In this document: in pieces, positions 33,291-48,210 of the stretch
Position numbering within the stretch: position 1 is the stretch's first letter
Layout: each line of letters opens with the position of its first letter
Source: Mycobacterium sp. UM_CSW
GTDB taxonomy: Bacteria; Actinomycetota; Actinomycetes; Mycobacteriales; Mycobacteriaceae
Direction: 5' to 3'
DNA length: 48,264 bases
Assembly: GCF_000455205.1 (NCBI RefSeq)
Contig: NZ_AUWQ01000124.1
Coordinates: 1-48,264 of the forward strand
Made by a program: the position numbers and the translations under genes
The notes under the pieces: model-generated
What the model was told of the DNA's origin: nothing
Seen by the model: the letters and a program-made list of their open reading frames with translations, nothing else
Databases searched by the model: none

Positions 33291-35126
33291 ATGCCGGGTT
33301 CGACCGCCCACGAAACGCTAGCAACAGCTTCCGACGACATCCGCGCAACCGTGGACCCGGCGTCGAGTCGGCGCGACACACCTTCGACGACCGAAGTCCC
33401 GACGTTCTTCGGACCAGCTGATTCGCCACTGTTCGGCGTGCTCCATCTGCCGGCCGACAAGCAGATCAGGGGCGGTGTACTGATCTGTGGCTCGCTCGGC
33501 AAGGACGGGATGGACAGCGTCCGCCTGCACCGGATCCTCGGCGACGGCTTGGCGCACCGCGGCTTCGCCGTGCTGCATTTCGACTACCTGGGCTCGGGTA
33601 ATTCGTCCTACGCGCAGGGCCGTGACGACGCGGTGGCCAACTGGGTGGCCAGCGTGGGCCACGCGCTCGACTACCTCACGCTGATCGGCGCCGAATCCAC
33701 GACGGCTGTCGGCATTCGTGCCGGGTGCCTGCTCCTCGACGAATATCTTGCCGGCCAATCGCACCCGCCCAACCGCGTGGTCTACCTCGATCCCGCCGGA
33801 ACGGGCAGACGCTACCTCCGGGAACACGCGACGCTGTTCCGGCTGTCGGTGGGCGAGGACGCTGCCACGCCCGGTGAAGTGTCGATCGTCGGCGGGCGGT
33901 TGAGCGACCACGCCGCCGCAGAATTCGCCGCGTTGCAGATCCGTGCCGATCCGGTCGGCGCCCGTGGCGTCGACAACATGCTTCTGGTGGGGCGACCGGA
34001 CGAGACCGACCGGCGCATCACGGCCCTCGCGTCGGCGCCGGGAGTCGATTCGGTCATCACCGTCGGCCTGCGGGAATGCGCGGGGCCGAGCCCGCGGGAC
34101 TACATGTTGCCGATCCCCTTCACCGCGGTCGATGCGATCACGCAGTGGATCGACCAGAACAGTGCCACCCGCACCCATCGCGCCGCACCCCGATACCGGA
34201 CAACGGCGACGGTGCCGGCCGACGGGCCCGATGGGGTAGACGTCGTCGAGCGCATCGAACGAATCGAGCCGAACGGGCTATTCGCCGTCCGCACGCTGCC
34301 CCGGCACCCCGATCCGTCGCCCGCAGGCACCGTGTTGTTCTTCGTGACCGGCCACGACCTGCACGTGGGACCAGCCCGGGAGTGGGTCGAGCTGTCACGT
34401 CGCGTCGCGGCGACCGGGGCGCAGGCGGTGCGCTGGGACCCCGCGGGACAGGGCTTGTCGGGCGAAATCACCCGGGGCCCTTGGCGCGACATCTACTCCA
34501 AGGCCGACATCGCCGACTCGATAGCGGTGGCCAGGCATGCGCGCCAAGGCGCCGGCGAACTCAAGCTGGTCGGGATCTGCTCCGGCTCGTGGTATGCCGC
34601 CCATGCCGCCCGCAGCATCGGTGCGCAATCGGCGATCCTGGTCAACCTGGTGATGTGGAATTGGCGCGTCACCCCCGCCTTGTTCATGCAGTGGATCGGC
34701 CGCGAGAAAGCGCGCCGCGCCAACGCGGTCGTTGACACGGCCACCGGCCCGTCGGAAGCCAAGACGAAGCGCCTCAGAGGACTGCTCAACCCGGCCCGGG
34801 AGCCGGCGAAACGCCTTATGCACCAACACCTCCCGCGACACGTCTTGCGGTTTTTGAGCTGGATTGGACTGGTGTGGCTGCCGGAGCCGGTCCTAACGAC
34901 ACTTGCCCGCCGCGGAACCGACGTGACGCTGATCGCCTCGCCCGAGGACGCGGAGGCGTTCGCCGCCAAAGGCGGTCGGGCAGCCCTCGAGCGGCTGCGC
35001 CGAACGTCGCGACGGACCCGCCTGATCGCGGTACCCACCGGCGATCATGTCGCCCATCACCCGGCGATCTTGACCGCGATCCGCAGCGCGGTGTTGCCGG
35101 CAGAGGCCGCTTGCCCGACTCGCTGA
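33291..35126 (+). CDS. Tandem alpha/beta-hydrolase, like exosortase-A-associated hydrolases 2 and 1 fused
   Basis: A 611-aa protein with two alpha/beta-hydrolase domains. Domain 1 (about residues 40-290) has GFAVLHFDYLGSGNSS and, at the nucleophile elbow, GIRAGCLLL instead of GxSxG. That matches the GLRAGxLL of exosortase-A-associated hydrolase 2 and lacks a serine nucleophile. Domain 2 (about 310-600) has VRWDPAGQGLSG and the elbow GICSGSW, like the GLCxG of hydrolase 1, with Cys as possible nucleophile. A late His is present in TGDHVAHHP. In Gram-negative exosortase loci these hydrolases sit beside an ACP and an acyl ligase, and such genes follow here within 6 kb. No exosortase is seen. Activity is unknown. 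Confidence 0.75.
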   Translation: MPGSTAHETLATASDDIRATVDPASSRRDTPSTTEVPTFFGPADSPLFGVLHLPADKQIRGGVLICGSLGKDGMDSVRLHRILGDGLAHRGFAVLHFDYLGSGNSSYAQGRDDAVANWVASVGHALDYLTLIGAESTTAVGIRAGCLLLDEYLAGQSHPPNRVVYLDPAGTGRRYLREHATLFRLSVGEDAATPGEVSIVGGRLSDHAAAEFAALQIRADPVGARGVDNMLLVGRPDETDRRITALASAPGVDSVITVGLRECAGPSPRDYMLPIPFTAVDAITQWIDQNSATRTHRAAPRYRTTATVPADGPDGVDVVERIERIEPNGLFAVRTLPRHPDPSPAGTVLFFVTGHDLHVGPAREWVELSRRVAATGAQAVRWDPAGQGLSGEITRGPWRDIYSKADIADSIAVARHARQGAGELKLVGICSGSWYAAHAARSIGAQSAILVNLVMWNWRVTPALFMQWIGREKARRANAVVDTATGPSEAKTKRLRGLLNPAREPAKRLMHQHLPRHVLRFLSWIGLVWLPEPVLTTLARRGTDVTLIASPEDAEAFAAKGGRAALERLRRTSRRTRLIAVPTGDHVAHHPAILTAIRSAVLPAEAACPTR

Positions 35127-35608: not shown

Positions 35609-36025
35609 CTAGCCGGCCTCGGCGGGGCCGCAGACCACGACGACGACGGCCATCGCGTGGCAATCGGCGTGCGAAAGGGACAACGACGAGCTGAGCCAGC
35701 CTTGCAGTTGCGCCCGCTCGGCGAGCGTTCCGCTCAGGCGCAGTAGCGGCAGCGGACCGTCGTGGGCCACCTCGATCTCGCGCAGCGGAAACGGCATGTC
35801 GGGTTCCCCGAACGCCTTGATCACCGCTTCCTTGGCCGCGAACCGGGCCGCCAGTCCGGGCACCCGATCGCGGCCCCGGCAGTCGTCGATCTCGTTCGCC
35901 GTAAAAACCTTGTGCAGGTACCGATCCCCGAACGCCGCCAGCGAGTCCCGGACATCCGCAATGGCCACGACGTCGCATCCGGTGCGCACGCGGCGCCCGT
36001 CAAGCTCGCCCGGCACATTGATCAT
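35609..36025 (-). CDS. AcpS-type 4'-phosphopantetheinyl transferase
   Basis: A 138-aa enzyme that transfers phosphopantetheine from CoA to a carrier-protein serine. Mg-binding motif 1 is TGCDVVAI (Asp18), motif 2 is RFAAKEAVIKAFG (Glu66, Lys70), and the C-terminal SLSLSHADCHAMAVVVV matches holo-ACP synthases. ATG 36025 lies 12 bp after the ACP stop, so the pair are cotranscribed and this enzyme is the obvious activator of that ACP. The housekeeping mycobacterial acpS sits elsewhere, with the fatty-acid synthase, so this looks like a pathway-specific copy. Confidence 0.88.
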   Translation of the reverse strand: MINVPGELDGRRVRTGCDVVAIADVRDSLAAFGDRYLHKVFTANEIDDCRGRDRVPGLAARFAAKEAVIKAFGEPDMPFPLREIEVAHDGPLPLLRLSGTLAERAQLQGWLSSSLSLSHADCHAMAVVVVVCGPAEAG

Positions 36026-36037
36026 GCAGTCAGCGCG

Positions 36038-36283
36038 TCAGGAAGACGAGTTGACCAGGCCGTCGACGACCCGCTCGATGCTGCTTATGGAGGCGAAGGT
36101 GGACTTCTTGAGCACTTCGTCGGGGAACTCGACGCCGAACGCATCCTCGAGCGCGAGCATGACATTGACCGACGCGTGCGACGTCAGGCCCAGCTCGTAC
36201 AGGTCGGCCTGGTCGTCCACCTCACGCGGATCGACCGCCATCCGACCATGGGCAGCTAAGACGTCACGGATTCGGTCCTGCAT
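36038..36283 (-). CDS. Free-standing acyl/aminoacyl carrier protein
   Basis: An 81-aa four-helix carrier protein. The phosphopantetheine site is ELGLTSHASVNVMLALEDAF, with Ser35 and Thr34 where Asp-Ser is usual. FPDEVLKKSTFASISSIERVV is the recognition helix III/IV region. The sequence type resembles carriers paired with stand-alone amino-acid:carrier ligases more than fatty-acid ACPs, but this is from memory. TTGGAGG about 10 nt before ATG 36283 is a good ribosome-binding site. Likely loaded by one of the adenylate-forming enzymes at 38713-41723. Confidence 0.88.
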   Translation of the reverse strand: MQDRIRDVLAAHGRMAVDPREVDDQADLYELGLTSHASVNVMLALEDAFGVEFPDEVLKKSTFASISSIERVVDGLVNSSS

Positions 36284-36504: not shown

Positions 36505-37125
36505 ATGTACATCCCGGCCCATTTCGCTGCCGACGAGCAGGCCGTCGACGACCTGCTCACGCACCACGGAGCAGCGGACCTGATCACCGCAACACCGGAG
36601 GGCGTCGTCGCCACCATGCTGCCGTTCGTGTATGACCGGGGCGCGGGGACGCTTCGGGGGCATCTCGCCCGCAACAACGACCAGTGGCGGCGCCCGGCGG
36701 TCGGCGAGGCCCTGGTCATCGTGCGGGGACCCGATGCGTACATCTCCCCGGCCTGGTACGCGAGCAAGGCGGAGCACGGGCGGGTGGTGCCCACGTGGAA
36801 CTACGTCACCGCGCACGTCTACGGGCGACTCACCGTCCACGACGACCCCGCCTGGGTCGAACAAAATGTGCGTGAACTGACCGGGCGCCACGAGGTCGGG
36901 CGACCGCAACCATGGTCGGTCGACGACGCGCCGCGAGAGTTCGTCGAGGCTCAATTGCGCGCCATCGTGGGAGTGGAATTGTCGATCACCCGGATCGAGG
37001 CCAAATTCAAGCTCAGCCAAAATCGGTCGGCCGCCGACATCGACGGCGTGGTCTCGGGTCTAATCACCACCGGGCGCGAAGACGTTGCTCTGGCCGTAGA
37101 GCGCGCACGCTTGCCGAGCAATTAA
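36505..37125 (+). CDS. FMN-binding PaiB-type protein
   Basis: A 206-aa protein matching PaiB/FMN-binding negative transcriptional regulators. MYIPAHF opens the fold, HLARNNDQW and VIVRGPDAYISPAWY line the flavin pocket, VPTWNYVTAHVYG is the core signature, and FKLSQNRSAADIDGVVSGL ends it. Members bind FMN or haem in a split-barrel dimer; direct DNA binding is documented only for some. ATG 36505 has CATACT ending 7 nt upstream, a possible leaderless promoter. It is next to a GNAT gene; in Bacillus, paiA (an acetyltransferase) and paiB are likewise neighbours, so the pairing may be meaningful. Confidence 0.88.
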   Translation: MYIPAHFAADEQAVDDLLTHHGAADLITATPEGVVATMLPFVYDRGAGTLRGHLARNNDQWRRPAVGEALVIVRGPDAYISPAWYASKAEHGRVVPTWNYVTAHVYGRLTVHDDPAWVEQNVRELTGRHEVGRPQPWSVDDAPREFVEAQLRAIVGVELSITRIEAKFKLSQNRSAADIDGVVSGLITTGREDVALAVERARLPSN

Positions 37126-37152
37126 CGGCGTGTCCCGTTAGCATCGACGGCC

Positions 37153-37908
37153 ATGGCGCGGACTGCGATCGAATTGAGGCGGCACCTCGGCGCCGCCGCC
37201 CGCCTGTGGTCCGCGCCGGCCCATCACACCGTGGAAGAAGAATGGTGGACCGCCTTCAGCGGCGAGATCAGCGTTGACTACAACGTGGCCTGTTGCCAGT
37301 CCTCCGACAACGACGTGCTGGTCGAGCACTGCCTCCAGCCGCTGCTCGACCTCAAGAAGCCCGGGATCGTCATGCTGGCCGGACCCGGCCTGGCCACCGC
37401 CCAGAAGCTGGTCGACGCCGGCTGGGCCGTGGTGGAGGCCCTTCCCCTGATGCTGCTCGAGGGTGCCGACCCGCCCGACGTCGACGGGGCGGGTGTGCGT
37501 GCCCTGACCGAGGAGGAGCTACCCGAGGCCCGCGCCCTGCTGGCCGATACCTACAGCATGTCCGACGCCGCCACCGCGGTGGCCATCCCCGTCCAAGCCG
37601 CGCAAGACCCGGACCTCGGGGCGTGGGGCATTTTTGACGGCGACCGCATGGTGTCCATGTTCACCGGGGTCATCGAGGACGGGCTGCTGGTGGTTTGGTC
37701 GATGGCCACCCGGCCACGCGACCAGGGGAAGGGCTACGGACGGCGGCTGCTGGCCGCCGTGCTGCGGTCCCAGTTCGACGCGGGGATCAAGGGTTCACTG
37801 CTGCAGTCGTCGCCGCCGGGCGAGCGCCTGTACCGCGGGCTTGGCTACCAGGTCGTCGAGTACTGGCAGCTTTGGTCCCGGCCTCGCTGGATGATGGGCC
37901 GCGCCTGA
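37153..37908 (+). CDS. GNAT family N-acetyltransferase
   Basis: A 251-aa protein. The C-terminal GNAT core (about residues 110-245) has RDQGKGYGRRLLAAVL as the acetyl-CoA loop and SSPPGERLYRGLGYQVV as the late strand/helix. The N-terminal 100 residues (HHTVEEEWWTAFSGEISVDYN) form a second, degenerate GNAT-like half. TAGCAT at 37139-37144 ends 8 nt before ATG 37153, a probable leaderless promoter. It is convergent with the cutinase gene. A polyamine or small amine is a typical substrate, especially beside a PaiB-like gene, but specificity cannot be read. Confidence 0.85.
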   Translation: MARTAIELRRHLGAAARLWSAPAHHTVEEEWWTAFSGEISVDYNVACCQSSDNDVLVEHCLQPLLDLKKPGIVMLAGPGLATAQKLVDAGWAVVEALPLMLLEGADPPDVDGAGVRALTEEELPEARALLADTYSMSDAATAVAIPVQAAQDPDLGAWGIFDGDRMVSMFTGVIEDGLLVVWSMATRPRDQGKGYGRRLLAAVLRSQFDAGIKGSLLQSSPPGERLYRGLGYQVVEYWQLWSRPRWMMGRA

Positions 37909-37924
37909 ACGGCCCGCCGGTCGG

Positions 37925-38605
37925 CTAGATCCGCCCAGCGACGAAGTTCGCTGCCTGATTGACCATCCCGTTCTGCACATAGCCGACGTGCGCCGACGAA
38001 TCCGTGCCGTCGGAACAGATCGGATCTCCGGGGTTGCACAGGTCGATGGTCTTCGCCCCATACAGCGGGCTGATCGCGGTCAGCGACGCCCGCAGCGATT
38101 TATCCCACGGATTTCCGAAGACGGCGACCGCGGCAACGTGGCGAGCCACGTCCGGCGGCATCGGCGCGGGAACGAAGCCCGCGGGTGGCGCACCCGCCGC
38201 GGTGATGAGGTCTATCACGGCCGCGCCCAGGGAGTATCCACCGAGCACCATCCTGGTGTCCGAACAGTTCGCCGCCGTGGACTGGACGTAGGCGCTCGCA
38301 TCTTTGGCGCCCGCGGACGCGGAGCTGGCCAATTCGCTGCTCTTGCTGGTCGCAGGGTAGTCGACCGCGTACACCGCGACGGATTTCCCCACGAGCTGCG
38401 GACGCAGCGAATCGACGAACGTCTGCCCGATCACGCCGAGCCCGGGTGGGTCATCGCTGCCGCGAGCAAACACCACCTCGACGTCGGGACACGGCGCCGC
38501 AGCGGCGGTCGAAGGCATGCTGATCACGGCGTTTGGCACCGCGCAGGTGGTCAGTAGCGCGGCGCCGAGGAAACGAGCGATCGTGCGGACGCTCACGTCG
38601 TTCAT
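37925..38605 (-). CDS. Secreted cutinase-family serine esterase
   Basis: A 226-aa exported esterase with a signal peptide of about 37 residues ending near STAAAAP. The catalytic triad is visible: Ser125 in GGYSLGAAV, Asp194 in CNPGDPICSDG and His206 in SSAHVGYV. Cysteine pairs (PCPDVE/ANCSDT and DLCNPGDPIC) match cutinase disulphides. The oxyanion strand is EVVFARGSDDPPGLG. Mycobacterial homologues (Culp proteins) hydrolyse esters of lipids in the envelope or host. ATG 38605 is used; the frame extends a few codons further. Its role beside the carrier-protein genes is unclear and may be unrelated. Confidence 0.92.
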   Translation of the reverse strand: MNDVSVRTIARFLGAALLTTCAVPNAVISMPSTAAAAPCPDVEVVFARGSDDPPGLGVIGQTFVDSLRPQLVGKSVAVYAVDYPATSKSSELASSASAGAKDASAYVQSTAANCSDTRMVLGGYSLGAAVIDLITAAGAPPAGFVPAPMPPDVARHVAAVAVFGNPWDKSLRASLTAISPLYGAKTIDLCNPGDPICSDGTDSSAHVGYVQNGMVNQAANFVAGRI

Positions 38606-38712
38606 ATTGACACATTGCGGCAATCCGCGGCCGCGGAAGCCGAGCGCGGCTGGACGACAGGAGTTTTCGCGTCGTGCCTCGTGACCTGCGCGGGTGAGCG
38701 AGAATAGCGAGC

Positions 38713-40257
38713 GTGCAGCAGCCGCGAGAAGGCGTGACAGGACGCGACGTGCTCGGTGCGGTGCTGGGCCACGCCGAGCGGGCCCCGGATGTGCCCGCCG
38801 TCAAGGACTTGGACCGCGCGTTGACCCGGGGCGAATTGCGCGCCGCGGCCGGGGCGGTCGCGGCCGGCCTGCGTCGGAAAGGCGTCGCGCCCGGGGATCG
38901 GGTCGCCCTGTTGATCGGTAACTCGGCGGACTTCGTGGTGGCGGCGCTGGGCTGCCTGTGGGCCGGGGTCACGTTCGTGCCGCTGGCCATCACCGACCCG
39001 GACATCCGCCGCGAGCAGATCGTCACCGACTGCCGGCCCGCGCAGGTGATCACCGCGGGCCCTGACCAGACGGCGCCCCCGGGGGGACTTCCGGCCGGCA
39101 CGCCGTGGACCTCCCTTGCGGAGCTGAGCGCCGCGGACGGGCACCCGCCAGAACCGGTGATCGGCCCCGTCTCCTACATCATCTATACGTCGGGGACGAC
39201 CGGCATCCCCAAGGGAGTCCAGATCCCCCCAGGGGCCTTCTACACCGCGGTCCAGGCGTGCGCCGACGCCGTGGGACTCAGCGCGGACGACCGGTGCCTG
39301 TGCGTTTCGCCCGTGCACTTCGACGGGTCGTTCTCCGCCATGTTTCCCCCGCTCGTGCGGGGCCTCCCGCTCGTCATTCCCGACCGCGAGGCCCTGCTGT
39401 TCCCCCGCAGGTTCTTTTCGATCGTCGCCGACGAGGGCATCACGGCGACCAGCTTCTCCCCCAGCTACCTCCGCTTACTCCGGGCCAGCGGCCGGCTCGA
39501 TCGGCTGGCCGACACCGCGCTCAGGGTGATCGCCTTGGGCGGCGAGGCGCCGTCCAGCGCCGACATCAGGGCGGTATGGGCCGCCAGTCCGGGACTGCGG
39601 GTGGTGAACCGGTACGGCCCGACCGAGACGACGATCGCCGTCGCGCATCTCGAACTGACGCCCGAGTTGCTCGACGCGGGACCGGTACCGATCGGTCATC
39701 CGCACAGCGGGAGTTCGTTTCACCTTGTTGACGAGCGCGGCGGCCTGATCGATCGCACCGGAGCGGTCGGCGAGCTGTACATCGGCGGGCTGCAGCTCAT
39801 GGCCGGATACCTGAACGACCCGGTGCTGAGCGCGGCCGTGCTGCGGACGGACGTCGTCGAGGGATCCACCGTCTACCGCACCGGTGACCTCGCCTTCCGC
39901 GACGACCGGGGCAACTACATATATATGGGGCGTTCCGACCGCGTCATCAAGCGACATGGCGTGCGGTTGTCCCTGGTCGAGGTGACCGAGGCGCTCGGTG
40001 GCCTGAACGGGGTGGCATCGGCGGCGTGCACGACCTTCGACCTGCAGGGCGACCTGGGAGTCGTCGCGTTCGTGGTGCCGGACGGCGAACTCACCCCGAT
40101 CGCCGTCCGTTCGGCCGCCAGCGAACGGCTCCCCGAAACGATGCTGCCCGATCAATTCGTCCTGGTGGCCGACCTGCCCCTGACCTCGTCCAGCAAGGTG
40201 GACGAGCGACGGCTGCTGAAGGAGGCCGGCCTGTCTCCGCCGAACACCGGGGCCTGA
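38713..40257 (+). CDS. Stand-alone adenylation enzyme (NRPS A-domain/DltA type)
   Basis: A 514-aa ANL-superfamily enzyme. Core A3 is YTSGTTGIPKG (158-168) and A4 VHFDGSFSAMFPPL has Asp204, the residue that in amino-acid-activating domains holds the alpha-amino group. A5 is NRYGPTETT, A7 YRTGDLAF, A8 GRSDRVIKRHGVRLSLVEVTEAL, and A10 Lys is about 495 (SSSKVDERRL). No carrier domain is attached, so it must load CoA or a separate carrier, most simply the ACP at 36038-36283. GTG 38713 starts the frame. By its motifs it probably activates an amino acid; the identity is not predictable by eye. Confidence 0.86.
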   Translation: MQQPREGVTGRDVLGAVLGHAERAPDVPAVKDLDRALTRGELRAAAGAVAAGLRRKGVAPGDRVALLIGNSADFVVAALGCLWAGVTFVPLAITDPDIRREQIVTDCRPAQVITAGPDQTAPPGGLPAGTPWTSLAELSAADGHPPEPVIGPVSYIIYTSGTTGIPKGVQIPPGAFYTAVQACADAVGLSADDRCLCVSPVHFDGSFSAMFPPLVRGLPLVIPDREALLFPRRFFSIVADEGITATSFSPSYLRLLRASGRLDRLADTALRVIALGGEAPSSADIRAVWAASPGLRVVNRYGPTETTIAVAHLELTPELLDAGPVPIGHPHSGSSFHLVDERGGLIDRTGAVGELYIGGLQLMAGYLNDPVLSAAVLRTDVVEGSTVYRTGDLAFRDDRGNYIYMGRSDRVIKRHGVRLSLVEVTEALGGLNGVASAACTTFDLQGDLGVVAFVVPDGELTPIAVRSAASERLPETMLPDQFVLVADLPLTSSSKVDERRLLKEAGLSPPNTGA

Positions 40258-40334: not shown

Positions 40335-41723
40335 GTGGAGGCGAGCGCAACTGGCACGGCCTCGGGGGAAACGTACGAACAGCTGGTCCGGCGCCAGCGT
40401 GCCCAATTGCAAGATACGTATCTGCAGGGGGTCCGCCGGCTGCGCTGGGACGCCGGGCGGCTCGCCGCGGAGCGCGAACGGCGGCTTCGGGAGCTACTCG
40501 TTTACGCCGCCGAACATTCGCCGTTCTGGCGGGAACGACTGGCGGGGCACGATCTGGCGAATTTCACCGAGGCCGACCTCCCCTCGCTGCCGATCCTGAC
40601 CAAGGCCGAAATGATGGAGGAGTTCGACCGGCTGGTCACCGTCCCCGGGTTGACGCGTGCCCGGGTCCAACAGCACCTCGACGAGTTGAGCGGGGACGGC
40701 TACCTCGACGGCCAGTACCGGGCGATCATCACGTCGGGGTATGTCCAAGCCCCGTCACTCCACGTCTACGGCTGGGACGCGTTCGTCACCTTCGTGATGC
40801 AAGGCTCGCGCTGGACCGGGCGACGCGGCGAGGACCCGGACGCGGTGCTGGCGCAGTGCTTCAGTTGCAGCCCCAAGCACGAATCCGGGATCTTCTACGC
40901 CTTCAGCACGTTTGAGAGCGGCGGACCCACCTCGCACTGCTGCGATGCCACGCTCCCCCTGGACAAGATCGTCGACCGCCTCAACAACGCCCGTCCCGCG
41001 GTGCAGGCGCTGCAAGGGTGGCCGAGCCTCATCCGCGAGCTGGCCCTGGAGGCGATGAACGGCCGGCTCACCATCGAACCGACCTGGGTGAGCGTCGCCG
41101 GGGAGCTCTGCACGCCGCCGGTGCGAGAGGCGGTTCGGGCCGCGTGGGGGATCGAGGCCTCGGAGTTCTGGGGCTGCTCGGAGGGGACCTACGCCTTTCC
41201 GTGCGGCGTCGGAGAGGGCATGCACGTCGCGGACGATCTGGTCATTCTCGAACCGGCGGATGCCGACGGCAACGTCGTGCCATTCGGGCAACCCGCGGAT
41301 CGGATGCTGCTGACCAACCTGTTCAACCTGGACCAACCGCTGATCCGCTACGACATGGTCGACGCCGTGACGATGTCCGACGAACCCTGTCCGTGCGGCT
41401 GCGCCCACCGCCGCATCCTCTCCGTCAACGGCCGGATCAACGGAGCCTTCGAATACGAGGGCGGTGCTCGGGTGCCGCGCGCCGCCGTCGAGCAGGCCGT
41501 CGTGGCCACCCCCGGTGTCGCCAACTTCTCCGTCGGCAAGGCGCAGCACGGTCTCGACGTGTCGGTGGTGACCGACGGTTCCTCCGACCTGCAGCGCCTA
41601 CAGACCGACCTGGTCGACCTGCTTCGCCGGCACGGCGGGCCGACCTCGGATGTCCGGGTGCGCGAGGTGGAATTCATCGAGCGGCTGTCGAGGGGGAAGT
41701 GCCGGCAGTTCGACCCCAGCTGA
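40335..41723 (+). CDS. PaaK-like adenylate-forming ligase with altered glycine-rich loop
   Basis: A 462-aa ANL enzyme resembling phenylacetate-CoA ligase. The N-terminal helix has ELLVYAAEHSPFWRERL and LPILTKAEMMEEF. The nucleotide region has WVSVAGELCTPPVREAVRAAWG and EFWGCSEGTYAFPCG. The C-terminal domain has ILSVNGRINGAFEYEGG. The expected SSGTTGxP loop is replaced by ITSGYVQAPSLHVYG (about residues 135-150). That loop normally holds the ATP phosphates, so adenylation may be altered or lost. PCPCGCAHRR resembles the zinc-type Cys pair of PaaK relatives. It could activate an aryl or acyl acid. Its stop lies 1 bp from that of the convergent MetY-type gene. Confidence 0.8.
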   Translation: MEASATGTASGETYEQLVRRQRAQLQDTYLQGVRRLRWDAGRLAAERERRLRELLVYAAEHSPFWRERLAGHDLANFTEADLPSLPILTKAEMMEEFDRLVTVPGLTRARVQQHLDELSGDGYLDGQYRAIITSGYVQAPSLHVYGWDAFVTFVMQGSRWTGRRGEDPDAVLAQCFSCSPKHESGIFYAFSTFESGGPTSHCCDATLPLDKIVDRLNNARPAVQALQGWPSLIRELALEAMNGRLTIEPTWVSVAGELCTPPVREAVRAAWGIEASEFWGCSEGTYAFPCGVGEGMHVADDLVILEPADADGNVVPFGQPADRMLLTNLFNLDQPLIRYDMVDAVTMSDEPCPCGCAHRRILSVNGRINGAFEYEGGARVPRAAVEQAVVATPGVANFSVGKAQHGLDVSVVTDGSSDLQRLQTDLVDLLRRHGGPTSDVRVREVEFIERLSRGKCRQFDPS

Positions 41724-41724
41724 T

Positions 41725-43002
41725 TCAGCCGGCCATAGCCTTGTCCAGCGCCTGATCGATGTCGGCGATGATGTCGTCGATGTGCTCGATCCCGATGGAC
41801 AGCCGGATCGTCTCCGGCCGGATGCCGGCCTTCGCCAGTTCCGCCTCGGACAACTGGCGGTGCGTGGTCGACGCCGGATGGATGGCCAGGGTCTTGGCGT
41901 CGCCCAGGTTGAGCAGCCGCTTGACGAGCTGGAGGGCATCGAAGAAGGCCAGTCCCGCCTCGTAGCCGCCCTCGGCCCCGAAGGTGACGATGGACGGCAC
42001 GCGCCCGTGCAGGTAGCGCCCGACGAGGTGGTGGTAGGGATGGTCGGGGAAGCCGGCGAAGCTCACCCAGGCCACGCGGTCGTCGGCGGCCAGGTAATCG
42101 GCCACCGCCCGCGCGTTTGCTTCGTGGCGCTCGAGCCGCACGGCCATCGTCTCGAGGCCCTGCAGAAGCATGAACGCGTTGAAGGGCGACAGGGTGGCGC
42201 CGCTGTTGCGCAGCTGGATGGAGCGGGCCCGCACGGCGAACGGCCGGTCGGGGAAGTCGCGGGCGAAGACGACGCCGTGAAAGGCGGGCTCGGGCCGGTT
42301 GAACAGGGGAAAGCGGTGGGGATGGTCGGCCCACGGGAACCGGCCGCCGTCCACGATGGCCCCGCCGAGGGTGGTGCCGTGGCCGCCCACGAACTTGGTC
42401 AGCGAGTGGACGACCACATCGGCCCCGTGCTCGAAGGGCTTGAGCATCAGCGGTGTGGCCACCGTGTTGTCCACGATGAACGGCACGCCCGCCGCGTGCG
42501 CCACGGCGGCGACGGCCTCGAGGTCGACGATGTTGCCCGCCGGGTTGCCGATGGTCTCGCAGAAGACGGCGCGGGTGTCGCCGTCGATGAGGCGGGCGAT
42601 CGACTCTGCCCGGTCGTCGGCGGCGAAGCGGGCCTTGATGCCCAGGGTGGGCAGCACGTGGGCGAAGTAGGTGAAGGTGGCCCCGTAGAGCTGGGGGGCG
42701 ACGACGATGTTCGAGCCGGCAGTGGCCACCGTCAGGATGGCGTAGCTGACGGCGGCCATGCCCGAAGCCACCACCAGGGCCGCCGTCCCCCCTTCCAGGG
42801 CGCAGATGCGCTGCTCGAGGACGTCGAGTGTCGGGTTGTTGAGCCGGTTGTAGTGGAAGCCCGGCGTCTCTAGGTCGAGCACGGCACCCGCGTGCTCGGC
42901 ACTGATGAAGTCGTGGGCCACCGTTTGGTAGATGGGGACGGCTACGGCCCGCGTCCCGTCGGCGGTGTAGCCACCGTGGATTGCGATGGTCTCGTCGTGC
43001 AT
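41725..43002 (-). CDS. MetY-type O-acylhomoserine sulfhydrylase / gamma-substituting PLP enzyme
   Basis: A 425-aa fold-type I PLP enzyme of the Cys/Met-metabolism family. It opens ETIAIHGGYTADGTRAVAVPIYQT. Tyr of YNRLNNPTLDVLEQRI and the SGMAAVSYAIL phosphate loop are present. Asp of FIVDNTVATP and the PLP lysine in HSLTKFVGGHGTTLGG follow, and HPASTTHRQL holds the conserved serine/threonine. MetY replaces the acyl group of O-acylhomoserine with sulfide to give homocysteine. Relatives use carbon, nitrogen or other nucleophiles in natural-product pathways. AGGAGGGCGGAGAGG upstream of ATG 43002 is a strong ribosome-binding site. It is the last gene of the five-gene operon, directly after the MetA-like gene. 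Confidence 0.9.
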   Translation of the reverse strand: MHDETIAIHGGYTADGTRAVAVPIYQTVAHDFISAEHAGAVLDLETPGFHYNRLNNPTLDVLEQRICALEGGTAALVVASGMAAVSYAILTVATAGSNIVVAPQLYGATFTYFAHVLPTLGIKARFAADDRAESIARLIDGDTRAVFCETIGNPAGNIVDLEAVAAVAHAAGVPFIVDNTVATPLMLKPFEHGADVVVHSLTKFVGGHGTTLGGAIVDGGRFPWADHPHRFPLFNRPEPAFHGVVFARDFPDRPFAVRARSIQLRNSGATLSPFNAFMLLQGLETMAVRLERHEANARAVADYLAADDRVAWVSFAGFPDHPYHHLVGRYLHGRVPSIVTFGAEGGYEAGLAFFDALQLVKRLLNLGDAKTLAIHPASTTHRQLSEAELAKAGIRPETIRLSIGIEHIDDIIADIDQALDKAMAG

Positions 43003-43021
43003 CCTCTCCGCCCTCCTCTTC

Positions 43022-43969
43022 TCAGATCGTCGCCAACAGGTTGGCGTACATACACAGGGCCGCGCCCCGCCACCGCCATGGGGCGCGGGCGCCAATCTCG
43101 TCGAAGGGGAAAGCAGCCACCAGGGCCGGGTCCCGTTCGCCACCTATCACCCGCTCATGCAGCCGGCGAAGACCGTCCCAGTCCGGGCCGGTCACGCAAT
43201 CCCTTGGGAGGCAGGGCAATTCGTCGTGCTCGCGGGCGGCGTAGCGCCGCACGTCCCGACCGTACTCGCGCACCAGGCTCGACGGGTCGTACTCGGGATG
43301 CGCCTGAAACAGCACCACCTGGGAAATCCCCACCGTCTTGCTGACCACGCTCCACCCCACCTCGGCCGACTGCAATGCCACCGCGTAGCCGGCGGCCGCC
43401 ACCGTCTCGGCGGGCACGGCGTTGAGCCGGGAGTGGGGCAGGACGAGGGGACCGTCCAAGCCCGCTGCCAGGGGATGGGACCGGTCGGCCTCCTGGGCGA
43501 AGACGCCCGTGCACTTGACCGGCAGGGTGGTCCGTTCGATGCCGTCGAAGACGGCCAGGGCGGCATGAGCCGACAGGCAGGACAGCACCATGGCGGGCAC
43601 GTTCTCGCTCCCCCACTTCAGCAGGCCGTGCAGATCGGACCAGTAGGGCTCGTCCTCGATACGGGACTCGATCGGGTTGGACCCGGTCACGATCAGCAGG
43701 CCGGGAGGGTTCGAAATGATGTCCTCGAGGGGTCGGTAATCGGCGGCGATGCGGGCGCGGATCCGCTCCCCCCGCGGCACCCCGACCATGGTGTGACGGG
43801 TGACGGCGACCGTGTCAGACCCGGACCCGGCGCCCAGCAGCCCCATGAATTGTCGCTCGGTGGCGCCGAAGGCGGCATCCGGCATGTTGTTGACCAGGGC
43901 GCACGTCCAGCGCGCCGGTCCCTCGATCCCGTCGGTCGGATCGAGGTCCCCTGCCAGTTGAACGCCCAT
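43022..43969 (-). CDS. MetA-family homoserine O-acyltransferase
   Basis: A 315-aa enzyme of the homoserine O-succinyl/acetyltransferase (MetA, HTS) family. ALVNNMPDAAFGATERQF is near the N-terminus, LLIVTGSNPIES matches the oxyanion region, the nucleophile is Cys in LSCLSAHAAL, and QAHPEYD supplies the catalytic His and Glu. It would acylate homoserine's hydroxyl, giving the substrate of the MetY-type enzyme next door. ATG 43969 lies 5 bp after the ATP-grasp stop. An in-frame opening upstream overlaps the ATP-grasp gene and reads as Arg/Pro noise. Mycobacteria normally use MetX, of a different fold, for methionine, so this is likely a pathway gene. Confidence 0.87.
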   Translation of the reverse strand: MGVQLAGDLDPTDGIEGPARWTCALVNNMPDAAFGATERQFMGLLGAGSGSDTVAVTRHTMVGVPRGERIRARIAADYRPLEDIISNPPGLLIVTGSNPIESRIEDEPYWSDLHGLLKWGSENVPAMVLSCLSAHAALAVFDGIERTTLPVKCTGVFAQEADRSHPLAAGLDGPLVLPHSRLNAVPAETVAAAGYAVALQSAEVGWSVVSKTVGISQVVLFQAHPEYDPSSLVREYGRDVRRYAAREHDELPCLPRDCVTGPDWDGLRRLHERVIGGERDPALVAAFPFDEIGARAPWRWRGAALCMYANLLATI

Positions 43970-43974
43970 CGCCG

Positions 43975-45249
43975 TCAATGCCTGACATCGGTGTAGGTGA
44001 CGGTGACCTCCTGGTGGAGGAGCCGGTAGGCCGCCTGCAACTGCTCCTCGTCGTCGGCCGAGCCGACCACCGCGACGATGTGGTTGCCGGAGCCGTCCCG
44101 CCAGTCGAGGGAGGCGCCCGGGCGCTGGTGGACGCTCACCGTGTCCACTCCGGCTTGGTCGCTGAAGTCGTTGATGCCCTCGATGGACGTCACGGTGGCC
44201 GAGACGGTCGGCGGCTGGAGGAAGAAGCGGTAGCCGATGCGGTCGGTGGCCACCGGTCCCTCGACGCAGACCGGCTCGCCCAGGGCCACCCGCAGGGTGA
44301 GGTCGAGCAGGCTGATGCCGGCGGCGCGCTTCAGCATCTCGGGCACACCGCCGCCCAGCCGCCCGTTGACCTCGATGATGCGGGGGCCGTCGGGGGTGAA
44401 CTTGACCTCGGTGTGCAGGCACCCGGTGCGTACCCCGAGGGCGTCGATGGCGCGGGTGGCGAGGTCCAGGACGGCCGAACGACTCTCCGCGTCGAGCGCG
44501 GCGGGGATGAAGAACCCCGTCTCGCGGAAGTTCTCGGCCGGCGGGAAGCGGCCGGTCAGGGCCAGGTGGCTGACGACGCCGTCGGCCACCACGCTCTCGA
44601 CCGAGACGTAGCCGGCGTAGGGGCCGCCGGCCCGGGCCGGATCGTCGGCCAGATAGCCCTCGAGCACCATGTCGCGGCGGCCCGGGCCGAGCGCATTCAG
44701 CAGCTTCTCGAGTTCGGCGCCGTCGCGGGCCAGGAAGGTGCAGCGGCTGCCCTGAGCCGAGCGGGGTTTGAGGACGGCGGGCCAGCCCACCTGGGCCTCG
44801 ACGGCCCGCAGCTCGCGCTCGGACTGGTCGGGGCGGATGAGGTGGCACGGGGGGATCTCGACGCCGGCGTCGGCCAGGGCCCGGCGCTGGCGGGCCTTGT
44901 CGGTGAGGGCGGCGGCGGTGGCCGGGCTGTGGAAGGGAAGGCCGAGCCCCTCTGCCACATGGGCCAGTTCGACCATGCCGGCGTCGAGGTAGGTGGTCAT
45001 GCCGTCGGGCTCCCAGTCGCCCAGAATCTTGACCGCCTGCTCCGCGCTCATGCCCTCCAGGTCGACGACGGGGCCGAATCGGTTGAGGAGATCGACCATC
45101 TCGCCCATCCCCGGCACTGCCGTGTCGATCAGCCACAGCAGGTCGCACAGGCCGGCGGCCGCTTCGGCCAGCTGCATCACGGGGACGCAACGCGGCCCGT
45201 AGCCGACCGCCACCAGCGGCCGCGGTCGTCCGGTCGGGGAATCCGTCAT
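43975..45249 (-). CDS. ATP-grasp carboxylate-amine ligase
   Basis: A 424-aa ATP-grasp enzyme. The N-terminal pre-ATP-grasp domain runs to about residue 110. LTDKARQRRALADAGVEIPP is the family's ATP-domain entry. AVLKPRSAQGSRCTF holds the ATP Lys. EGYLADDPARAGGPYAGYVSVES is the hinge. IIEVNGRLGGGVPEML carries the Mg-binding Glu/Asn. Such enzymes join a carboxylate, as acyl phosphate, to an amine, for example dipeptide ligases or BacD/CARNS relatives. It lies between the FAD protein (4 bp gap) and the MetA-like gene (5 bp gap). Probable substrates are amino acids made or altered by the neighbours; identity unknown. Confidence 0.88.
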   Translation of the reverse strand: MTDSPTGRPRPLVAVGYGPRCVPVMQLAEAAAGLCDLLWLIDTAVPGMGEMVDLLNRFGPVVDLEGMSAEQAVKILGDWEPDGMTTYLDAGMVELAHVAEGLGLPFHSPATAAALTDKARQRRALADAGVEIPPCHLIRPDQSERELRAVEAQVGWPAVLKPRSAQGSRCTFLARDGAELEKLLNALGPGRRDMVLEGYLADDPARAGGPYAGYVSVESVVADGVVSHLALTGRFPPAENFRETGFFIPAALDAESRSAVLDLATRAIDALGVRTGCLHTEVKFTPDGPRIIEVNGRLGGGVPEMLKRAAGISLLDLTLRVALGEPVCVEGPVATDRIGYRFFLQPPTVSATVTSIEGINDFSDQAGVDTVSVHQRPGASLDWRDGSGNHIVAVVGSADDEEQLQAAYRLLHQEVTVTYTDVRH

Positions 45250-45253
45250 GGGC

Positions 45254-47071
45254 TCAGCCGATCACGGCCTCGACGCAGTCCTGCGCGTCGTACACGGCCC
45301 GCAGTCGGCTGCGGGGTGAGGGCAGGTAGTGGGTGAAGTAGCGCACCCCCTCGGTGAGCACGCCCAGCAAGGAGAGGTTGGGCTGGAGCCGGCCCTCCGT
45401 GTCGTAGGGGTGGAAGTCCTCGTTGATGGCCACGCTGCCCACTGGTGTGTCACCGTAGGTGAGCTGGGTCAGCCTGCCCTTGGCGTACAGACGGTTCAGC
45501 AGGGGCGAGCCCGACCGGGCCAGCGAGGGCATGTCGAGGTAGCCCCGAACCACCCCGTCGGCCGTCAAGGCCGTCGGCTCGTCGAGGGCCGTGGAGCTCA
45601 GGCGGACGCCGTCGCCGCACGCGGCCAGCTCCGGGCTGGGCCCGAGCGGGATCCGCACCACTCCGGCGTCGAGCAGCGCCAGCAACTGCTGGGACCGCAT
45701 GGGTGGCACGCCCGCCTCCAGCCGGTTGATGCGGCCCCGGACGTTGGACTGAAATTCGACGTAGGAGTCGAGCGAGAGGCCGCCGAACTCGATGACCGAA
45801 CGCAGCTTGTCGCGGAGGATGCGCAGCACCTCCTGGGCCGCCTTGACGGGGCTGCCCCCGGGTAGCAGGGCCTCGGTGAGGTCGTCGTCGATCATGTCGT
45901 AGACCTGGCTCTGGTAGTCACCGGCCGAGGTGTAGTGGCGGTCCGACCCGGCGAAGAGGTGAGTGGCCGGATCGAAGCGGCCGTAGCGCGGCTCGAGACC
46001 GTCGACGACCTTTTCGTAGTGTCCGTCGAGCCAGCCTTGCCGAAGGACGGAGCGGACCTCGGTGGACTCGACGTCGCCCCCGGCCCGCGAGGCGGCCTGG
46101 ATGTAGTAGCGCGCCTGCATCTCGGCGAAGATCAGCGGGAGAAGCTCGGCCCGGAAGTCCACATGCCGCCGCACCGGCGATCCGCCCGGATTGGTCAGCG
46201 CCGCAAACTCCTCGGTGGTGCACACCACCGGCTGGTACTGGCCGTAGGGGTCGACGCCCGTGGCCGACTTGGCGCAGTACGGCGCGCCCGAGCGCGAGTA
46301 AAGCGTGATGGTCGGCTCGCTGCCCGAGGGCACATACCGCATTCGGTCACCCCGGTCGCACCGGTCCACGAAGGTCCCGCCTCGTCCGACCGTGAGGGCG
46401 GTCAGGACATCGAAGCAGACCAGGCCCATGCCCGCCACGGCCAGCGAGGATCCCGCCGGAGCGCTGCGATCGAGGCACTCGATCGGGTAGGGCTGCAGGT
46501 AGCGCACGCCCCCGTCGGCCCCGCGCTCGTGGTTCCAGGTGTGCCCCGACGTCAGCACCACGTGGTCGACGGTGAGGGTGGTGCCGTTGTCGAGCAGCAC
46601 CTCCTCCCGCCCGTGGAGGGCCGGCGAGATGTCGACGGCCGCCGCGTAGTGCCGGACGATCTCGAGGTTGGGCGGGGCGTAGGACACCAGCGTGTCGTAG
46701 AACCAGACCAGGTACTCGCCCATCAACCGCCGCGGCAGGTAGTCGGTGGGCAGGATGGGGTCACCCCCGGCGCCGATGCGGCATTCGTAACCCATCCAGC
46801 GGTAGCCGCGGACCACCGCCCACGGATGCAGTCCCACCGCGTAGGGCGGCAGCGGGTCCCCGTCGGGCGCGACGTAAAGGGAGAGCTGGCCGCAGGCGTT
46901 GTTGAGCACCAGGAAGTCGGGCTGCTCGGCGGAGTAGACGCCGCCTCCGAGTTGAGCGGGCTCAATCACGTGCACCCGCACCGGCGTGTTGACCCGCCGG
47001 GCCCGGCTCACCGTGCGCTCGAGGACGCAAAGGCCCCATGCGCCGAGCCCGACGATGGCCATCTCGATCAT
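45254..47071 (-). CDS. FAD/NAD(P)-binding protein (NAD_binding_9 type)
   Basis: A 605-aa protein with an N-terminal dinucleotide site AIVGLGAWGLCVLERTV (residues 4-20). VHVIEPAQLGGGVYSAEQPDFLVLNNACG continues the FAD domain, with TVDHVVLTSGHTW and SSLAVAGMGLVCFDVLTAL as a second Rossmann-type site. The middle and C-terminal regions are helical and not recognisable. Members of this family occur in biosynthetic clusters, and some are suspected monooxygenases or N-hydroxylases; none is assigned here. ATG 47071 overlaps the stop of the threonine-aldolase gene by 4 bp (ATGA), which decides the start over ATG 47089. The large size leaves room for an unassigned second function. Confidence 0.8.
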   Translation of the reverse strand: MIEMAIVGLGAWGLCVLERTVSRARRVNTPVRVHVIEPAQLGGGVYSAEQPDFLVLNNACGQLSLYVAPDGDPLPPYAVGLHPWAVVRGYRWMGYECRIGAGGDPILPTDYLPRRLMGEYLVWFYDTLVSYAPPNLEIVRHYAAAVDISPALHGREEVLLDNGTTLTVDHVVLTSGHTWNHERGADGGVRYLQPYPIECLDRSAPAGSSLAVAGMGLVCFDVLTALTVGRGGTFVDRCDRGDRMRYVPSGSEPTITLYSRSGAPYCAKSATGVDPYGQYQPVVCTTEEFAALTNPGGSPVRRHVDFRAELLPLIFAEMQARYYIQAASRAGGDVESTEVRSVLRQGWLDGHYEKVVDGLEPRYGRFDPATHLFAGSDRHYTSAGDYQSQVYDMIDDDLTEALLPGGSPVKAAQEVLRILRDKLRSVIEFGGLSLDSYVEFQSNVRGRINRLEAGVPPMRSQQLLALLDAGVVRIPLGPSPELAACGDGVRLSSTALDEPTALTADGVVRGYLDMPSLARSGSPLLNRLYAKGRLTQLTYGDTPVGSVAINEDFHPYDTEGRLQPNLSLLGVLTEGVRYFTHYLPSPRSRLRAVYDAQDCVEAVIG

Positions 47072-48210
47072 CGGACACTTCCCATACACGCCACCTCAGC
47101 TCGGCGGCCGTTGGCTGATCTCTGCGTTCGAGACCGGTTCGGCCGGTTTTCCTGGATTGCGGCCGCGGTGAGTCGGCGGACCGCGTCGACGAGTTCGTCG
47201 ACCACGTGGGTCGCGGTGGCGAAGGAGGTGACGAAACGGACGACACCCGGTTCCCACCGGCCGTGGTAGAAGTCGTAGCCCTGCTCGAGCAGTCCGTCGA
47301 TGACCTGCTGGGGCAGGCGGCAGAAGAGGATGTTCGCCTCCGGCGTGCCCGCAACGCGGGCGCCGGCAATGGAATTCAGACCCTCGTAGAGCCGCGCGGT
47401 CATGGCATTGGCGTGCAAGGCATTTCGCAGCCACAGGTCGTCGGCGAGGTAGGCGTCGAGTTGGGCTGCGGCGAAACGCATCTTGGCCGCGAGTTGTCCG
47501 GCGCGCTTGGCCCGGAAACTCAGTTCGGTGGTCAGGGAGCGGTCGAACACGACGATCGCATCGGCGGTGATGCTCCCGTTCTTGATGGCGCCGAAGGACA
47601 ACACGTCCACGCCGGCGCGCCAGGTCAGTTCGGCGGGGCTGCAGCCCAACGCCGCGACGGCGTTGGCCAGGCGGGCCCCATCCAGGTGGACGCGCAGGCC
47701 CGCACGCTTCGCGATGGAGGCCAGGCGTCCGATCTCGGCGGGGGTGTATACCGCGCCGGTCTCGGTTGACTGGGTGAGGCTCAGCACGGCGGGTTGCACG
47801 CTGTGCATGTCCCCGACCTTGCGGTGCACCGCGGCCTGCAGCTCGTCGGCGTCGATCTTGGCGTTATCCCCGCCCAGGGCAATGAGTTTGGCGCCCCCTG
47901 TGAAGAATTCCGGGGCGCCGCACTCGTCGTTGTTGATGTGGCTGTCGCGGTGGCACAGCACGGCGCCCCATGGTGGGGTCAGCGCGGCCAAGCTCAATGC
48001 GTTCGCCGCCGAGCCGGTGGAAACGGGGAGCAGATCGACGTCGCGGTCGAAGACCTCGCTGAAGCGGCGCCGGGCGCTGGACGTCCAACTGTCGGTGCCA
48101 TAGGGCGGTGCCTGCCCGGCTGCCGCCGCAGCAATGGCCGCGATGATCTCGGGTGCACCCCCCGCGGTGTTATCGCTGACGAGGGAGCGGCATGGCCTCA
48201 TGGCGATCAC
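47068..48210 (-). CDS. Threonine aldolase-like PLP enzyme (beta-eliminating lyase family)
   Basis: A 380-aa fold-type I PLP enzyme. SLVSDNTAGGAPEIIAAI is the typical start, followed by PVSTGSAANALSLAAL, AVLSLTQSTETGAVY, the PLP Asp in VHLDGARLANAVAALG, and Lys in SFGAIKNGSITADAI. It cleaves, or in reverse builds, beta-hydroxy-alpha-amino acids from glycine and an aldehyde. The start may be GTG 48210 or ATG 48201; neither has a clear ribosome-binding site. The last 25 residues are Arg-rich and probably disordered. It heads the operon of five minus-strand genes. It could be housekeeping by sequence, but its coupling to the flavoprotein suggests a pathway role. Confidence 0.85.
   Translation of the reverse strand: MIAMRPCRSLVSDNTAGGAPEIIAAIAAAAAGQAPPYGTDSWTSSARRRFSEVFDRDVDLLPVSTGSAANALSLAALTPPWGAVLCHRDSHINNDECGAPEFFTGGAKLIALGGDNAKIDADELQAAVHRKVGDMHSVQPAVLSLTQSTETGAVYTPAEIGRLASIAKRAGLRVHLDGARLANAVAALGCSPAELTWRAGVDVLSFGAIKNGSITADAIVVFDRSLTTELSFRAKRAGQLAAKMRFAAAQLDAYLADDLWLRNALHANAMTARLYEGLNSIAGARVAGTPEANILFCRLPQQVIDGLLEQGYDFYHGRWEPGVVRFVTSFATATHVVDELVDAVRRLTAAAIQENRPNRSRTQRSANGRRAEVACMGSVR

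Follow-up and report, generated by a model that had tools for sequence, protein, structure and literature searches.

Genes of the locus and their conserved linkage

The stretch analysed here (the window, 48,264 nucleotides) is one whole contig (G000:C124) of Mycobacterium sp. UM_CSW. By reading its open reading frames (ORFs), five genes were recognized at 41725..48210, all on the minus strand, i.e., genes for an aldolase-like pyridoxal phosphate (PLP) enzyme, a flavoenzyme, an ATP-grasp enzyme, a MetA-like acyltransferase, and a MetY-type enzyme (Table 1). The spacings are -4, +4, +5, and +19 bp and depend on start codons picked by reading the sequence; the flavoenzyme gene was started at the ATG at 47071, with an alternative GTG at 47089. 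All five Pfam matches exceed their cut-offs. The layout given in an earlier note on this DNA, which had proposed a five-gene operon for a small-molecule pathway, was thereby confirmed. The conserved pathway behind the gene set is real, but its core differs from the proposed unit. The flavoenzyme, MetA, and MetY genes form the core, with the ATP-grasp gene close to it, and the cluster extends past the five genes to an adenylation domain and an acyl carrier protein (ACP).

Related loci were collected by a species-genome scan. The scan chose loci by two peptide patterns from our own alignment (A2), one of them close to residue 577 of 8CP2, a solved aspartate N-hydroxylase. It gave 119 stretches with a flavin relative, of which the best 80 (79 loci) were retained; the counts are no census. 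The clade of the window comprised 33 non-duplicate loci, i.e., 9 of Mycobacterium (window included), 14 of Acidimicrobiaceae, 6 of unnamed Actinomycetes, and 4 of Solirubrobacterales. Partner genes at these loci were detected by tblastn. For some related loci, genes were called by a simple GC-position finder, and a part of these starts and antisense ORFs is wrong.

Beside the flavin gene, MetY was found at 32, MetA at 28, and the ATP-grasp gene at 22 of the 33 loci. The sequence of the sole locus without MetY (L054) stops one base past the flavin match, and in four of the five loci without MetA the sequence goes on for no more than 1.5 kb past the flavin gene towards MetY. Two of the ATP-grasp counts (L061 and L067) are genes of 37-41% identity placed elsewhere in the locus. 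Locus L095, a 48% flavin relative with the flavin gene split across two frames, was excluded; it showed neither MetY nor MetA in its 13 kb (1.2 kb on the right), and MetY would be at 32 of 34 loci if it were counted. The aldolase gene was found at 7 of the 33 loci, all mycobacterial, and was rejected as a core gene.

The flavin, ATP-grasp, MetA, and MetY genes are co-directional in 8 of the 9 mycobacterial loci. Of the 14 Acidimicrobiaceae loci, 10 have the complete set of four, with the flavin gene opposing the other three. Beyond Mycobacterium the linked genes are 47-71% (flavin), 64-85% (MetY), and 37-61% (MetA) identical, and their order and strands are altered. Because the linkage persists through rearrangement, it is reasonable to consider that the genes share a function, and the linkage is taken to be beyond chance. 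Scattered and unlinked relatives, which the note would have counted against its reading, were looked for; linkage was found instead across the 33 loci.

Of 396 genomes sampled from the genus, 9 carry the flavin gene at E <= 1e-60, and the genome of the window is one of them. A MetA match (PF04204) was found in 8 of the 396, all within the nine flavin-positive genomes. In the ninth (G365), the flavin copy is broken and reaches a contig edge. The co-occurrence has P = 6e-16, computed as if the genomes were independent, although they are related. In a sample of the phylum, 3 of 396 genomes had the flavin gene at E <= 1e-60, every one of the same genus. No record in the plasmid collection matched MetA at E 1e-20. 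At L054 and L048 (G365), the broken flavin copy lies at the end of a contig, beside an aldolase gene that looks intact.

On midpoint-rooted trees, the mycobacterial flavin copies formed one clade (support 100) within a 20-member set with Acidimicrobiaceae (98). The mycobacterial MetY copies also formed one clade (100/99), next to L055 at weaker support (91/81). The simplest reading of these trees is that the gene set was transferred into Mycobacterium.

Table 1. Genes of the cluster and its surroundings in the window, with the number of the 33 clade loci at which each was found
Feature	Position	Strand	Loci	Evidence
Threonine/phenylserine-aldolase-like PLP enzyme, peripheral	48210-47068	-	7	PF01212 171.1 bits; best solved relative 1V72
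Flavin adenine dinucleotide (FAD)/NAD(P) flavoenzyme, aspartate-N-hydroxylase fold, core	47071-45254	-		PF13454 99.5 bits
ATP-grasp enzyme, L-amino-acid-ligase-like, near-core	45249-43975	-	22	PF13535 ATP-grasp_4 30.2 bits
MetA-like homoserine O-acyltransferase, core	43969-43022	-	28	PF04204 152.6 bits (cut-off 27); Cys and His-Pro-Glu in 27/27
MetY-type gamma-replacement PLP enzyme, core	43002-41725	-	32	PF01053 395.7 bits; TIGR01326 568.7 bits (cut-off 495.1); clade-specific loop
PaaK-like adenylate-forming enzyme, convergent	40335..41723	+	7 (mycobacterial only)	weak NCBIfam matches
Stand-alone adenylation domain	38713..40257	+	17	PF00501 232 bits; nearest solved relatives are nonribosomal peptide synthetase A domains
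Acyl carrier protein (ACP)	36038..36283	-	16	NF005480 99.1 bits (cut-off 72)
AcpS-type phosphopantetheinyl transferase	35609..36025	-	11	PF01648
Double alpha/beta-hydrolase-like protein	33291..35126	+	11 (mostly 25-30% identity)	TIGR03101/TIGR03100 resemblance below cut-off

Active-site changes in MetA, MetY, and the flavoenzyme

The MetA protein stays under the cut-offs of the NCBIfam equivalog models (266.4 against 358, 96.2 against 460.5, and 94.1 against 495 bits). Its catalytic Cys and His-Pro-Glu are kept in all 27 cluster MetAs, whereas the lysine of the MPDK motif is replaced by A, G, or S in every one of them. This lysine presumably has a functional role in MetA. The acyl-coenzyme A preference was sought by a one-residue rule and the attempt was rejected, as the aligned residue of the window fits neither case.

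The MetY proteins of the cluster (31 sequences) formed one clade (100/100) against six outsiders, i.e., the MetY of the genome itself, three plasmid-borne relatives (59-61% identical, from three of the 107 plasmid records with a MetY relative), and two solved enzymes. The loop reads GFHYNR in all 31 cluster rows and NIYTR in the six outsiders (GNIYTR loop). Around the Y51-x-R53 pair, 31 of 31 cluster MetYs carry F49, H50, and N52, and the corresponding residues of all six outsiders are N, I, and T. Residues A108 and Y112 (30/31) are likewise changed. Y51 and R53 themselves are present in 31 of 31 rows, and the PLP lysine, Lys 203, lies within the SLTKF motif of the window MetY. The YxR pair is taken here to bind PLP.

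In the same genome, a separate MetY gene (C92:15511-16752, 50% identical) lies directly before a MetX gene (G000:C92:16896-17918). This MetX scored 419 bits, below the curated cut-off (500), and in the same search all 14 control genomes fell short of that value as well. The cluster resembles MetA-MetY methionine biosynthesis in the families (PF04204 and PF01053), the catalytic Cys, His, and Glu, and the YxR pair. It differs in the lost MPDK lysine, the change of the GNIYTR loop to GFHYNR, and the linkage to N-oxygenase and carrier-protein genes, while the methionine genes of the host lie elsewhere.

In the earlier note, an oxidation step was proposed for the operon. The fold of the flavoenzyme, a helical domain between two dinucleotide-binding domains, matches FzmM and CreE; it is an amino-acid N-hydroxylase fold and not that of a generic oxidase. 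In 8CP2, aspartate is contacted by Arg13, Arg276, Asn413, Arg416, and Arg577 (PMC10404684). The window has W18, Q284, D427, R430, and S591 at these sites; unlike in the aspartate N-hydroxylases FzmM and CreE (8CP2, 8CP5), R13, R276, N413, and R577 are replaced, i.e., four of the five contacts. Therefore, the claim that the catalytic residues are intact holds for the Cys, His, and Glu of MetA, but not for the MPDK lysine or the aspartate contacts of the flavoenzyme. The 95-sequence flavin comparison was made with rows of at least 500 residues, leaving out L054, L078, L079, and L095 among others.

The FzmM/CreE pathway also differs in its partners. It proceeds from aspartate to nitrosuccinate, whereas the partners here are MetA and MetY, and a CreD-like lyase gave no tblastn match among the 30 clade loci compared, window included. 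An aspartate-nitrosuccinate cassette was rejected on these two grounds, the changed contacts and the missing lyase match.

Other flavin relatives had other neighbours. In four genomes of the same genus (G050, G041, G004, and G043; loci L027, L029, L030, and L031), flavin paralogues adjoin a CreD-like lyase gene and keep all nine 8CP2 sites; these loci are likely nitrous-acid cassettes. SbnA-SbnB-flavin arrangements with a cystathionine gamma-synthase (CGS)-like gene were found at L118, L092, and 13 other loci, all actinobacterial and mostly of Streptomyces; the CGS-like gene adjoins 15 of 33 SbnA/SbnB-linked flavin copies. In two Streptomyces loci (L110:7873-13433 and L125:7566-13436), SbnA, SbnB, flavin, a MetA with MPDK, and a LysE-like gene (named by eye) follow consecutively. 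Because of the MPDK-type MetA and the CGS-like neighbours of these SbnA/SbnB-linked copies, homoserine gamma-chemistry has joined the flavin family more than once. At L080-L084, flavin relatives have an upstream ATP-grasp gene, with an SbnA-like gene (31-36%) near each. A Methylomagnum plasmid operon (L038:7627-16826) encodes a flavin relative with W13, D413, and S577 together with two di-heme proteins; no MetA or MetY match was found in it.

Ligase, carrier-protein, and neighbouring genes

The ATP-grasp protein matches solved L-amino acid ligases, i.e., 3VOT (E 7e-19) and BacD (E 5e-15). The HTE and IE(V/S) motifs of these ligases were aligned in it, and a LAL_C2 domain scored 27.0 bits against a cut-off of 29.4.

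An amino acid:[carrier protein] ligase was found at 5 of the 33 loci, and the copy at L053 passes NF005479 (429 bits, cut-off 357). Either this ligase or the adenylation domain is present at 20 of the 33. The window ACP passes NF005480 as in amino acid:[carrier protein] ligase systems (NF005479, NF005480); unlike them, the window has the adenylation domain and no match to such a ligase. The start of the ACP was picked by similarity, and its ORF extends to 36379. The specificity of the adenylation domain was read by eye against the GrsA code; it fits no amino acid known to us and was not used.

FMN_bind_2 (PaiB-like), GNAT, and cutinase genes lie at window positions 36505-38623 and go along with the cluster in several mycobacteria. 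In the Acidimicrobiaceae loci (L055-L065, L067, L069, and L070), other companions were found, i.e., an SsuD-like monooxygenase (11/33), an amidohydrolase (11/33), and an aldo/keto reductase (9/33, named by eye). The aldolase gene starts 54 bases from the contig end, which bounds the upstream view, and additional genes may lie beyond it. Guanine-cytosine content is 0.69-0.72 over 42-48 kb against 0.66-0.70 over 30-42 kb, a difference of little diagnostic value.

Proposed pathway and rival explanations

The gene set is proposed to encode a specialised-metabolite pathway on homoserine, a reading to which we give about an even chance of being right. MetA would O-acylate homoserine. The MetY-type enzyme would then eliminate the acyl group via a vinylglycine-type intermediate and add a non-sulfide nucleophile at C-gamma. 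The flavoenzyme would N-oxygenate an amino acid other than aspartate, either providing the MetY nucleophile or oxidising the MetY product. The amino acid so formed would be coupled to a second by the ATP-grasp enzyme, and the adenylation domain (at some loci, the amino acid:[carrier protein] ligase), ACP, and AcpS would load a related amino acid for later steps. The reactions, their order, and the product are all inferred from the linkage, the co-inheritance, the families, the fold, and the clade-specific active-site changes. The product is probably an N-O-containing gamma-substituted amino acid. That the genes belong to a conserved and probably specialised pathway, as the earlier note held, agrees with the 33 related loci and the separate MetY-MetX pair.

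Known systems share parts of this scheme. PLP-dependent gamma-replacement through a vinylglycine ketimine with non-sulfide nucleophiles, the chemistry proposed for MetY, is described in excerpts of PMC10367076 for CndF, Fub7, AnkD, Mur24, and LolC. These enzymes make other products and are fungal or, for Mur24, actinobacterial, and the same excerpts tell of no tie to the flavin family (PMC10367076). Background on CreE/CreD and alanosine comes from PMC11705231 and PMC7347517, which review N-N and N-hydroxylating enzymes and do not use the word homoserine in their main text. By enzyme class only, the D-cycloserine pathway (DcsABCDEG) has the same order of N-oxygenation, O-acylation of an amino-acid alcohol, PLP replacement, and ligase; in the excerpts of PMC10214352 it uses serine, the beta-position, and hydroxyurea from arginine, whereas homoserine and the gamma-position would be used here.

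A more specific form of our proposal is a gamma-homologue of the cycloserine strategy. In it, MetY would join an N-oxygenated amino acid via O or N to C-gamma of O-acylhomoserine, and the canaline-like aminooxy or N-hydroxyamino acid would be coupled or cyclised by the ATP-grasp enzyme. DcsG is presumably an ATP-grasp enzyme as well. In this detailed form the idea is speculative and unlikely to hold.

Several observations weigh against the homoserine-based pathway. TIGR01326 still places MetY in the sulfhydrylase subfamily, and the loop contrast comes from comparison with six outsiders alone. R276 is retained in 2 of 30 clade members. Among 27 relatives that have none of the three partner types (CreD, SbnA/SbnB, MetA/MetY), 19 also carry D or E at 413, which is therefore no proof of an amine substrate. 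L060 has no MetA despite 10 kb of sequence on the MetY side, and the ATP-grasp gene was not found in any of the four Solirubrobacterales loci.

Sulfide is used by MetY-type enzymes, and so the cluster could be a sulfur pathway, in which homocysteine, or a derivative of it substituted at sulfur, is formed by MetY and oxygenated at S or N by the flavoenzyme. The SsuD-like luciferase-family gene at 11 of the 33 loci fits this explanation, but no such gene is in the mycobacterial loci, the solved relative of the flavoenzyme is an N-hydroxylase, and the MetY loop is changed. We regard it as rather unlikely, though the least so among the rivals. The version of the earlier note, in which an aldolase-made beta-hydroxy amino acid is processed by the other four genes, leans on the 4-base overlap of the aldolase and flavin genes and on the aldolase at 7 of the 9 mycobacterial loci. 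None of the 24 non-mycobacterial loci has the aldolase, and neither do L046 and L053, so the core product cannot depend on it; the enzyme may act in tailoring or as a source of glycine. The beta-hydroxy product depends on this non-core gene and was not upheld, and the version is judged quite unlikely.

A nitrite or nitro donor cassette as in CreE/CreD, with MetA and MetY serving separately, would agree with the fold common to aspartate N-hydroxylase and with the CreD-linked cassettes of the same genus. With four of five aspartate contacts changed and no CreD-like match in the clade loci compared, it is improbable. Least probable is that MetA and MetY form a second, ordinary route to methionine or homocysteine and lie by chance among other genes. 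The PF04204 and TIGR01326 matches and the kept Cys, His, and Glu of MetA speak for it; the changed MetY loop and the lost MetA lysine speak against it. Because the genome holds its own MetY-MetX pair, a housekeeping role is unlikely, and it was rejected on this pair and on the rarity of MetA, which only 8 of 396 genomes have and which the flavin gene accompanies in each of them.

From titles and the starts of abstracts in open-access PubMed Central text, no paper on this gene set was recognised. Although the enzyme families are known, their combination appears to be new, as do the subclade of the flavoenzyme and the loop of MetY. If the proposed homoserine pathway is true, the cluster, which some mycobacteria have in common with uncultured soil actinobacteria, would link the aspartate-N-hydroxylase fold to substrates of a new class and would add a new nucleophile to those of the MetY family. 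A canaline-like product, if real, would be an unknown class of antimetabolite in these bacteria, again with a new MetY nucleophile. The substrate-chamber residues, which track the gene partners, i.e., CreD, SbnA/SbnB, or MetA/MetY, would be a key to many unannotated clusters.
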